In this document: piece by piece, positions 6,574 to 42,533 of the stretch
Layout of the letters: each line of letters begins with the position of its first letter
How positions within the stretch are numbered: the stretch's first letter is position 1
Source of the DNA: Vandammella animalimorsus
GTDB taxonomy: Bacteria > Pseudomonadota > Gammaproteobacteria > Burkholderiales > Burkholderiaceae_C
Assembly (NCBI RefSeq): GCF_002285285.1
Contig: NZ_NSJF01000001.1
Coordinates: 1-64,000 of the forward strand
Direction: 5' to 3'
DNA length: 64,000 nt
Notes under the pieces: model-generated
The model's input: only the letters and a program-made list of their open reading frames with translations
Told to the model about the DNA's origin: nothing
The model's database searches: none
Program-made: the position numbers and the translations under genes

Positions 6574-6600
6574 ATGCGTGCAGAGACTTTGAACAGGCTC
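6574..6600. repeat. Dispersed repeat family A, end fragment at the adk stop codon
   Basis: On the minus strand the adk stop TGA (6603-6601) is followed at once by GAGCCTGTTCAAAGTCTCTG, one end of the repeat family seen complete at 13149-13310. Similarity fades after about 27 bases, where the adk terminator begins. The opposite end is not present. Confidence 0.7.
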
Positions 6601-7257
6601 TCAGCTGCCCAGGGCCTCGAACACGCGCTGGGTGATGGCCTCCACGCTGCCCACGCCGCTGATCTTGCGGTACTTGGGCGCCTTGGCCGGCTCCTTGGCG
6701 GCCCAATCTGAGTAGTAGCTCACCAAAGGGCGGGTTTGCGCGTCGTAGACCTCCAGGCGTTTCTTGACGGTTTCTTCCTTGTCGTCATCGCGCTGGATCA
6801 GCGGCTCTCCAGTGACATCGTCCACCCCCTCGACCTTGGGCGGATTGAATTTGATGTGGTAGGTGCGGCCGCTGCCGGGGTGCTGGCGCCGGCCCGTGGC
6901 GCGTTCCATGATGTCGCCAAAAGGCACGTCGATCTCCAGCACGTAGTCCAGATCGACGCCAGCCTCTTTCATGGCATCCGCTTGCGGAATGGTGCGCGGA
7001 AAGCCGTCGAACAAAAAGCCCTTGGCGCAATCGGGCTGGGCGATGCGCTCCTTGACCAAGCCGATGATGATGTCGTCGCTGACCAGCTGCCCGGCGTCCA
7101 TCACGGCCTTGGCCTGCAGGCCCAGCGGCGTGCCGGCCTTGACGGCCGCGCGCAGCATGTCGCCAGTGGAAATTTGCGGGATGGCGAACTTCTCGCAGAT
7201 GAATGCGGCCTGTGTGCCCTTTCCGGCACCGGGTGCGCCGAGCAAAATCAGTCTCAT
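6601..7257 (-). CDS. adk: Adenylate kinase
   Basis: A 218-residue long-form adenylate kinase interconverting ATP, ADP and AMP in the cytoplasm. It starts [16 protein letters not shown] (P-loop at residues 7-15). The NMP-binding region [10 protein letters not shown] follows, then [10 protein letters not shown] (~84-93), and a LID domain (~120-165) with [18 protein letters not shown]. The LID lacks the four-cysteine zinc site of some Gram-positive enzymes. Full length for the family. The start at 7257 has AAGGA eight bases upstream. A repeat end abuts the stop codon and a terminator follows. Confidence 0.97.
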
Positions 7258-7403
7258 TGGATTGTTCCTTCGTTGTGTTGGGCCAGACTGCGCATCACAG
7301 GCGTACAGCCAAGGCCCTGAAAAATGCCGCCAGAGCATAGCATGGGGCCCATGGGCCTCAGGCGCAGCCCGGCCATGAATTTTGCCCGTGGATACCCGCA
7401 GGC

Positions 7404-9155
7404 TCAGAGCTGACTGGCCGCCGGGGCGGCGAACAGCAACACGGCCTCGTCGCTGGTAGGGCGCTCGATGCGCGCCTGCAGGCGCCAGCCAGCGCGCTGC
7501 AGCGCCGCCTGGCTGGCCGCACTGGCCTGGGCCCCGACCAGGCTCAGCGGACAGGTCTGGGCGCTGGCTGGTGCCTGCGCCGCCGGGCTGTTGGCGTCGG
7601 GCTGGCGCAAGGGCCAGCCGGCCTGGGCCCAAAAGGCTGCCAGCTGTGGTGTGCTCAGATCGTAGGCCCACAGGCAGGGCACATCTTGCGGGATGTGGGC
7701 GGCGAGCTTGTCGATCTGCGGCTGGTAGGAGCGGCCATAGTCCAGCATGGGAAGCCACAGCGTCATGACCAGCGTCAGGCACCAGGTCGCGCCGCCAGCG
7801 GGCAGCACCAGGCTCTTCCACAGCGCAGAGCGGTGCCGCCCGGTGCGCCAAGCGATCACAGCCAGCCAGATGGCTGTGCTCAGCGCCGCCAGCCCGAAGG
7901 CCAGCGCCGAAAACTGCGGCACATACTCCGGCGCCAGCTTGGCCACATTGGCCGCAGGCTTGGCCGGCAGGCCGGTTTGCGTGGCCGTCCAGATCACCCA
8001 GATGGCCACGCCGCAGGCAGTGAAGAACAGCAGCGTGAACCAATCAATGAGCGAAGACAGGGTGCGGCGCATCGTCGGCAGTGCAAACGCCGCCAGCGTA
8101 GCGGCCATGGGCAGGCCGAGAAACAGCGTGCGATCGCGCGCCGAGCCCTGCGCACAGGCCGCCAGGGCCAGGGTGAGCAGCAGCCAGAGCAGCGGCAGGG
8201 CCAGGTGCGGGCTGGGCCGGGCGCGCAGCCAATGCCGCCGCCAGCGGTACAAAGCCCAGCAGGCCAGCGGCCAGGCCGGCCAGCCAAACCAGATGAGCAG
8301 GCGCACAAAGCGCAGCCACTGCGCGCCATCCAGCCCCGGCCAGGCCAACGGCCAGGCCGCGCCGTGCCAGAAGGCCTGCGCCGCCGCGCCGAGCGTGGCT
8401 AGCAGCGCCAGCGCGCCCAGCAGCGGCAAGGGCAGCGCAAGGCGCACGGCAGACCCTCTGAGCTGCCAGGCCAGCAGCAGGGTGGCCAGCAGCACCGGCG
8501 CCAGCCAATAGGCCCCGCCGCTCAGCAGCAGCACGGCGCAGGCCAGCGCGGCCAGGCCGCAGGCCAGGGGCCGCCGCGCCTCGGGCAAGGCCAGGGCAAG
8601 AAACAACAGGCTGGCGCCGCCCAGCTGCACGACCGTGGCCGTGGTTTCATGTGAAAACTGCATCAGGCCCAGACTGGCCACCAGCGCCAGCACACTGCCA
8701 TCTGCAATGGCGCGGGCGTAGGCCACGGGCTCGGCCTCACCGCCAAAGGCAAAGGGCACGGGCTGGGCTTCGGGCCGTCTGGCTAAGTAGTAAGTGGCGT
8801 ACCAGACGGCGGCCAGGCTGATCAGCATCAGACCCATGAAAGGCAGGCGCACGGCCAGCGTCGGGGCCAGCCAGTCCGGGCGCAACAGCAAGGCCAGCGC
8901 GCCCAGCCAGACGGACAAATGCTGCGAGGCATAGCCAAGCCCTTGGCCCAGCAACTCCGGCTGCAGCCAGCTGCTCTGGCCCTGAGCCAGCGCCTGCATG
9001 TAGCCGTAAGCGGCCATGTCCTCGTTCTTCCAAGGGTGGCGGCCAATAAAGCCCGCGCAGACATACACCAGGCTCAGCGCCCAGAGGATGGCGCGCGCCA
9101 ATGGGCGCACGGCGCTTTGGCTGACGATGGCGGGCGAGGGGGGCAGAGCGCTCAC
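7404..9155 (-). CDS. ArnT/PMT-like membrane glycosyltransferase (GT39/GT83 family)
   Basis: A polytopic membrane protein of about 584 residues with a dozen hydrophobic segments. The region [17 protein letters not shown] near the N-terminus resembles the first periplasmic loop of ArnT-type transferases, where an acidic residue is catalytic. Such enzymes move a sugar from a polyprenyl-phosphate carrier to lipid A, protein or another envelope acceptor; acceptor and donor cannot be told here. The frame stays open to 9527, but the sequence above residue [13 protein letters not shown] is not family-like and runs into a repeat, so I use the GTG at 9155. No clear ribosome binding site is visible and a TTG at 9176 is an alternative. 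The C-terminus is a soluble domain of about 120 residues. Confidence 0.68.
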
Positions 9156-41580: not shown

Positions 41581-41754
41581 GGGCTTCGAACGCAATATGG
41601 GGGGCAGAAAAAGCTGCGCATTGTAGGAGCTGTGGCGGCGCGCCCTGCCGGGAGGTGGCGCCAACAGGCCGCACAATGGAAGCTCAATGGCCAGCGAGCG
41701 CTTGCAGTCGGAGTGGCGCTGGCCAACCCCTGTCCCGTGATGGAGAGTACCAAC

Positions 41755-42504
41755 GTGAATTCAAGCCCAGCCCATAGTGCAGACCTGCCAGCCGATCAAC
41801 TGCTCAGTGCCGATCCCGTGGATTGGCCTGTGGCCCCAGAATGGATGCCGGCCACCAGCGCATTCTTTGGCAGCGCGAAAGGCCAGGCGCTGCTGGCCTT
41901 TTTGCAGCAGCGCCTGGATGCGGGCGCCAGCATCTTTCCGCCGCAGCCGCTGCGCGCCCTGGAGCTGACGGCGCCGCAGGATGTGCGCGTGGTGATTCTT
42001 GGGCAGGACCCTTACCACGGGCGCGGCCAGGCCGAGGGCCTGGCCTTTTCCGTCGCGCCCGGCGTGCCTCTGCCGCCTTCGCTGCGCAACATCTTCCAGG
42101 AAATGCAGCGCGACCTGGGCGTGGCGCCGCCAGCCTTTCCGCAGCCGGGCGGCAGTCTGGTGCAGTGGGCCAGAAATGGTGTGCTGTTGCTCAACACCTG
42201 CCTGACGGTCGAGGAAGGCCAGGCCGCCAGCCATGCCGGCAAGGGTTGGGAGGTGTTGACCGACGCGCTGATTGCACAGGTGGCGCAGGGGCCGCGGCCG
42301 GTGGTGTTCATGCTGTGGGGGGCGCACGCGCAATCCAAGCAGGCGCTGATCCCGCCCGATCGGGGCCACCTCGTACTACTGGCCAATCATCCCTCGCCGC
42401 TGTCGGCCACAAGGCCACCCCGGCCTTTCATCGGCTGCGGTCACTTCAGCGCGGCCAAGGCATTTCGGCAGCATCAGGCTTCTGCCAGCCAGGAACAGAC
42501 TTGA
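41755..42504 (+). CDS. ung: Uracil-DNA glycosylase
   Basis: A 249-residue family 1 UDG removing uracil from DNA. Motif A is [20 protein letters not shown] with the catalytic Asp-Pro-Tyr-His; [22 protein letters not shown] (split: [16 protein letters not shown]) follows; the DNA-inserting loop is NHPSPLSA. I choose the GTG at 41755, because GGAGAG lies seven bases before it; ATG 41740 overlaps that site. The stop TGA is followed by an end of the dispersed repeat. Confidence 0.96.
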
Positions 42505-42533
42505 GCGCCTGTTTCAAAAGCTTTGCGCTATGG
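42505..42533. repeat. Dispersed repeat family A, end fragment at the ung stop codon
   Basis: GCGCCTGTTTCAAAAGCTTTG follows the ung TGA directly. It matches the repeat end with one inserted T. No matching right end is seen. Confidence 0.5.

Follow-up and report, generated by a model that had tools for sequence, protein, structure and literature searches.

Hairpin elements of a family of miniature inverted-repeat transposable elements (MITEs) in Vandammella animalimorsus and its relatives, a group of Comamonadaceae bacteria, stand directly behind stop codons far more often than random target sites would place them there. Pooled over five genomes, 39 of 63 distinct insertions abut an in-frame stop, compared with 11% of non-coding TNA sites, or 18-27% once sites are weighted by target preference; the stop excess claimed in the preliminary description of this DNA thus holds for the five genomes. 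The element is probably a non-autonomous hairpin with a CTNAG target, for which stops are a large share of the sites left after gene-breaking insertions have been lost. Target and loss together account for most of the excess, leaving a residual of about 1.5-fold.

Copies of the repeat in the 64-kb window

The window is the whole 64,000-nucleotide stretch of DNA that was analysed. Allowing up to 3 mismatches, the terminal sequence GAGCCTGTTCAAAATC has nine matches in it, compared with 0.18 expected, and none of 100 shuffles reaches nine. Among these matches, the pair at 22709 and 22850, with 3 mismatches apiece, lies beyond the six places listed earlier; the end at 42505 carries an inserted T and is not among the nine. 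All six listed places are real, but they are unequal, comprising one full copy, one degenerate full-length copy and four remnants. Protein profiles bear out the identities given to adk, comEC, rodA and ung, and the repeat follows the TGA of each with no base between, as described; TGA on both flanks is likewise true of two copies, 13149-13310 and 18473-18558. The features concerned are the following.

694-1323, plus strand: partial IS5-family transposase frame near the contig end (NF033580, 157 bits; PF01609)
2400-2567, plus strand: full-length but degenerate copy, with CGA before it and TGA behind, not at a called stop (tip search)
6585-6600, minus strand: lone surviving MITE end, directly after the adk stop (tip search)
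6601-7257, minus strand: adk, TGA stop at 6601-6603 (adenylate kinase, NF001379)
9191-9206, plus strand: lone MITE end in a gap, TAA before, not at a called stop (tip search)
10446-13148, plus strand: comEC, ending at the MITE, start codon uncertain (TIGR00361, 329.6 bits)
13146-13148, plus strand: TGA that is both the comEC stop and the left TNA duplicate (sequence; ComEC/Rec2 profile)
13149-13310, plus strand: full 162-bp hairpin MITE with perfect ends (tip and full-copy search, fold)
13311-13313, plus strand: TGA that is the right TNA duplicate of the 13149-13310 copy (sequence)
16850-18472, plus strand: rodA frame that runs up to the remnant, start uncertain, with residues 169-524 matching RodA (TIGR02210)
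18473-18558, plus strand: 86-bp MITE remnant between TGA 18470-18472 and TGA 18559-18561 (tip search)
42505-42523, plus strand: decayed MITE end behind TGA 42502-42504, the stop of ung (TIGR00628)

Structure and distribution of the family

The repeat unit is a hairpin MITE of 161-162 bp with ends GAGCCTGTTCAAAATC and 3-bp TNA target duplications; its first base is G and its last is C, the ends reading GAGCCTG. It contains no transposase gene and, being a short element with terminal inverted repeats present in many copies, has the features by which MITEs are recognised. The 162-bp copy at 13149-13310 folds as one hairpin of -93.3 kcal/mol, against -52.2 for shuffles (z -9.7), and an alignment of 41 of 62 copies has changes on both sides at 13 of the 43 predicted pairs. 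In the terminator search on the hairpin the outer stem is not followed by a T run; the sole terminator-like match is the inner stem followed by TGCGTTTTGC, where 0.2 matches are expected by shuffling. Scanning window positions 12000-19000 gave no match to an Rfam family at gathering score.

Searches of the own and related genomes with the 162-bp copy, as had been proposed, place the family well outside the window. The own genome (G000; 3.08 Mb in 13 contigs) holds at least 40 full copies by this query, the scored copies being the best 40 of 152 candidates there and at most 21 per relative; 30 of these 40 are at least 94% identical to the query. The 13-base tip occurs 92 times in the same genome, against 0 for the reversed control. 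Among 40 genomes searched, the own included, 16 have matches, the strongest within the genus. The 26-base tip is carried by Vandammella animalimorsus, Allofranklinella schreckenbergeri and two Comamonadaceae records, a list from which records close to the own genome may be missing. A longer MITE of 264-277 bp with the same ends is found in G007, a genome of lower G+C content with 142 tip matches at up to 2 mismatches (L273, L278, L282, L284 and L290).

Three genomes of other genera (G012, G013 and G014) have, among the matches listed, only the hairpin centre (query positions 41-121), at up to 94% identity over 48 bases; the hairpin core may be older than the present ends. At L057 (G000:C11:33765-34411) four copies lie head-to-tail at 162-bp spacing, which looks like array growth via recombination.

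Target site and its duplication

Duplication of a TNA target on insertion, as first proposed from the window, is borne out genome-wide. Identical TGA, TCA, TTA or TAA flanks are found at 24 of the first 30 copies, and an exact TNA pair borders 72 of 107 full copies at loci from five related genomes. When 24 distinct non-stop sites are symmetrised, C at -1 and G at +3 occur in 77%, giving the target CTNAG; the target weight matrix is built on 24 sites. Centres of the TAA type are over-used at stops (14 of 39 vs 17% in the background, P = 0.005), and non-stop sites have the same tendency (10 of 24 vs 24%, P = 0.06). With G first and C last, the element lets every junction retain or acquire part of CTNAG: the motif is present at 29 of 63 empty sites and, after insertion, at 39 left and 50 right junctions. 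A stop can therefore be entered again.

A partner insertion sequence

The most likely agent of MITE movement is an IS5-family transposase, encoded by an element whose ends are nearly those of the MITE. A full insertion sequence (IS) of this kind, whose search had been suggested, does exist in the own genome (G000:C6): it is 848 bp long, has ends GAACCTGTTCAAAATCTTTT and a TAA pair, and differs from the MITE end at one of its first 16 bases. The first of its two frames gives a DUF4096 match (PF13340), the second a match to IS5-family DDE transposases (NF033580, 149.3 bits against a cut-off of 110; PF01609). Both flanks are available at 15 IS sites of 841-848 bp, the genus contributing eight and three other genera the remaining seven, and 11 of the 15 have an exact TNA pair; the relatives in other genera have less MITE-like ends, for example GAGCCTGTCTACGATC. 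The 3-bp TNA duplication is the rule of the IS1031 group within the IS5 family, to which the partner IS may belong. MITE and IS thus have ends of about 16 bp and the TNA pair in common, whereas the DDE transposase is encoded by the IS alone. In G000 the IS has also rebuilt a TAG stop lying within TTAG, because the element starts with G.

In raw counts IS copies are at stops less often than MITE copies (3 of 15 vs 39 of 63, Fisher P = 0.004). IS gaps hold few targetable stops, and within their own gaps the IS copies are at stops in 3 of 14 cases vs 0.8-1.6 expected; the gap-conditioned comparison does not separate the two elements, and a stop bias restricted to the MITE was dropped as a reading of this contrast. 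A 2.6-kb tip pair at C1:355339-357953 was rejected as a candidate full IS: a 713-codon minus-strand gene lies between the tips, and the flanks are CCA and TAA.

Insertions at stop codons

The 125 places collected from the five genomes yield 107 full-length copies, and leaving out 35 without an exact TNA pair and nine shared insertions gives the 63 distinct ones. The share that abuts a called in-frame stop is 52 of 107 for full copies, 45 of 72 for those with a TNA pair and 39 of 63 for distinct insertions. Two of the insertions counted, G000 C8:191298 and G005 C62:9469, stand in orthologous genes and could be a single old event. The background comprises the window and fifteen 20-kb stretches of the own genome, together 364 kb with 311 called genes, in which stops make up 239 of 2120 non-coding TNA sites (11.3%). 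With target weighting this share becomes 18-27%, and the chance of 39 in 63 is at most 8e-9; this and the P values below assume independent sites and a correct small weight matrix.

The codon-model gene caller missed ung, and some coding DNA is thus counted as non-coding. Gaps of up to 250 bp were used because over-counted non-coding DNA matters less there. In these gaps 31 of 43 insertions are at stops vs a target-weighted share of 42-44% (P = 0.8-1.6e-4), and in gaps of up to 150 bp 22 of 29 vs 47-49% (P = 2-3e-3). When each insertion is compared with its own gap, 38 of 54 are at the stop vs 25 expected; this test left out nine of the 63, one of them a stop site, for coding overlap, lack of a targetable stop or a gap above 2500 bp. 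Among 49 copies within 50 bp beyond a stop, 39 are at distance 0, compared with 43-57% expected. Once the copy is removed, only one of 63 sites lies in a called gene, and the coding share of the target weight is 72-78%.

Older copies have no higher stop share: in four classes of falling identity to the 13149-13310 copy it is 10 of 17, 11 of 14, 11 of 19 and 7 of 13, and no slow loss is visible across them. Both orientations occur at stops (24 vs 15, P = 0.20). Seen from the genes, 6 of 292 sampled stops have a MITE end (up to 3 mismatches of 13) behind them, vs 0.07 expected. At L049 (G000:C6:551195-551357) a TCA-paired copy is read across by a gene call, and the site is called intergenic once the copy is taken out.

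In the five pooled genomes the effect is strong, and the claim extends no further than these. In G174, the species behind L239, where 27 of 30 loci were usable and stops were called with the G000 codon model, 11 of 27 copies are at stops; in the gap test 6 of 12 with a TNA pair are at stops vs 3.1-5.1 expected, with no clear residual. For the longer MITE of G007, 20 places were taken from the 142 tips, many with only one end known, and 3 of these 20 loci are at stops, a weak tip in L285, also at a called stop, being uncounted. Among its paired copies 2 of 6 touch a stop, and the gap test gives 1 of 5 at the stop vs 1.1-1.4 expected.

Empty sites and re-entry in relatives

Gene ends corresponding to 16 loci were sought in ten genomes of the genus, and orthologues were obtained for 15. 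Three of 46 orthologue rows were paralogue cross-hits and were removed, leaving 43, of which 35 end at the aligned stop without a full copy or a second TNA directly behind it; three of these empty rows (L167, L175 and L183) have an older remnant after the stop. Of the remaining rows, three carry the element at the same stop, as was known beforehand, and five end elsewhere. A single stop at the junction, as expected if insertion duplicates it, is thus found in at least one relative at 14 of 15 loci. These single stops support the view that insertion leaves the stop codon intact.

Some stops have been entered more than once. Relative G006 has nothing but an older copy at the stop of C13:42451, and what follows the TAA of C8:271539 in two relatives is a decayed MITE end alone; one stop can therefore be entered repeatedly. 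Old ends lie beside 10 of 63 insertions and 41 of 1881 sites in an unmatched control. When sites are matched for an adjoining G, the figures are 8 of 61 insertions vs 31 of 820 non-stop TNA sites (P = 0.004), vs 17 of 162 stops (P = 0.64) and vs 9 of 105 non-stop CTNAG sites (P = 0.43). Frequent re-use of old sites was withdrawn as the cause of the residual, old ends being not clearly commoner at insertions than at matched stops or CTNAG sites. With sites that have an old end alongside dropped, the excess stays (31 of 45 at stops vs about 21 expected).

Other old copies were seen along the way. Orthologous genes of G000, G005 and G009, with gene ends 82 and 80% identical, share a MITE at their stop (L036, L136 and L124), and the shared position reflects either one old insertion or parallel hits. 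Several decayed G000 copies keep only the stop-touching end (L040, L044, L045, L048, L055 and L060), perhaps since deletions across it would enter the gene; lone ends far from stops persist too, for example L056 and L058 in G000.

Origin of the stop excess

The following model would account for these findings. The MITE inserts at the palindromic CTNAG and duplicates the middle TNA, which as TGA or TAA can be a stop on one strand and as TCA or TTA on the other. An insertion at a stop then preserves the coding sequence, the stop and whatever lies downstream. Nearly every insertion inside a gene is lost, presumably by selection, and this loss would leave stops as a large share of the surviving sites. 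The residual could, as a guess, reflect harm done by insertions in terminators or ribosome sites just past the stop. The preliminary description had spoken of stops as a selected safe site: over-representation at stops stands, with about 1.5-fold left beyond the target and the loss of gene-breaking insertions. As for safe sites, the data support no more than passive accumulation.

A stronger claim, that stops are self-renewing docking sites for a mobile 3' UTR, reached by a CTNAG-specific transposase beyond their share of the target, rebuilt by every insertion with a target left at its junctions, and re-entered by successive generations, seems doubtful to us; if true, a measurable share of the genome's 3' ends would be built from transposon ends. 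It is somewhat less likely again that the transposition complex actively favours stops or gene 3' ends through a feature beyond CTNAG. The residual of about 1.5-fold inside the same gaps, its presence already in the class with 97% or more identity to the 13149-13310 copy (10 of 17) and the 3 of 14 autonomous IS copies at stops vs 0.8-1.6 expected in their own gaps would agree with such targeting, but TAA-type centres are over-used at stops and elsewhere alike, as a single target rule gives, and neither G174 (6 of 12 vs 3.1-5.1) nor the paired G007 copies (1 of 5 vs 1.1-1.4) have a clear residual. We know of no mechanism for active stop targeting.

Retention of stop copies for a useful 3' UTR hairpin, acting as a terminator or a block to 3' exonucleases, is unlikely too, and slightly more so than active targeting. 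The strength of the fold relative to shuffles (-93.3 vs -52.2 kcal/mol), the 13 of 43 predicted pairs changed on both sides and the ends after 6 of 292 sampled stops (0.07 expected) would fit such a role; yet the outer stem has no T run and the terminator-like match is the inner stem, both orientations (24 and 15) serve at stops, paired changes at the ends may reflect recognition of both by the transposase, and a 3' hairpin of use need not begin at base 1. Finally, there might be no stop preference at all, gene density making any non-coding repeat with such a target look stop-adjacent. Target-weighted stops do reach 42-44% in gaps of up to 250 bp and 47-49% in gaps of up to 150 bp, and the gap-conditioned counts in G174 and G007 are not clearly above the target-weighted null, but the 31 of 43, 22 of 29 and 38 of 54 (25 expected) observed in the pooled genomes make this account very improbable.

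Survival of stop insertions after the loss of gene-breaking ones thus remains the preferred reading. It implies that a target rule can steer transposons to the one kind of site in a dense genome at which insertion need not be costly, the 3-bp duplication being by chance the stop itself. The family offers a measured case of how far target sequence and the loss of damaging insertions carry safe-site accumulation, with a quantified remainder left. A further suggestion is that transposon remnants sit at some gene 3' ends of these bacteria, where they could affect the ends of messages.

Relation to known elements

Stop contact by another repeat type is already published. The termini of GTAG REPs reportedly often provide the TAG stop of flanking ORFs, and REPs are reported near gene 3' ends (PMC3733652, in the parts available). 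They resemble the present repeat in being palindromic, in lying near gene 3' ends and in touching stops; they are palindromes of 20-40 bp tagged GTAG that supply the stop, whereas the MITE, at 161 bp and with IS5-type ends reading GAGCCTG, duplicates a native one and is not a GTAG REP. IS1272 has several insertions just past gene 3' ends and replaces an inverted repeat at its target, as far as the accessible text of PMC5678879 goes; position just beyond gene 3' ends is common to both elements, and inverted-repeat replacement is a feature of IS1272. For IS5 of E. coli, the portion of PMC11677980 consulted gives a 4-bp target with consensus CA/TAG/A and a bias to intergenic sites.

Other bacterial MITEs (RUP, NEMIS/Correia, Nezha and MITEAba12) are, in the partial sources at hand, likewise short, without a transposase gene and bounded by terminal inverted repeats, and a concentration exactly at stops is not reported for them in those parts of the literature searched. 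The literature searches, with subscription literature mostly outside their reach, found no paper on IS5-derived MITEs at stop codons.

A second inverted repeat in the window

A second MITE-like inverted repeat occupies window positions 48006-48277, with 33-nt arms that are 97% complementary and outer ends CTAGAGCGTGTTATGCACTTTTCG. In G006 (L170) the sequence AAAGTGCATAACACGCTCTAG, which resembles the ends of this repeat, lies at most 40 bp after the stop of the orthologous gene.
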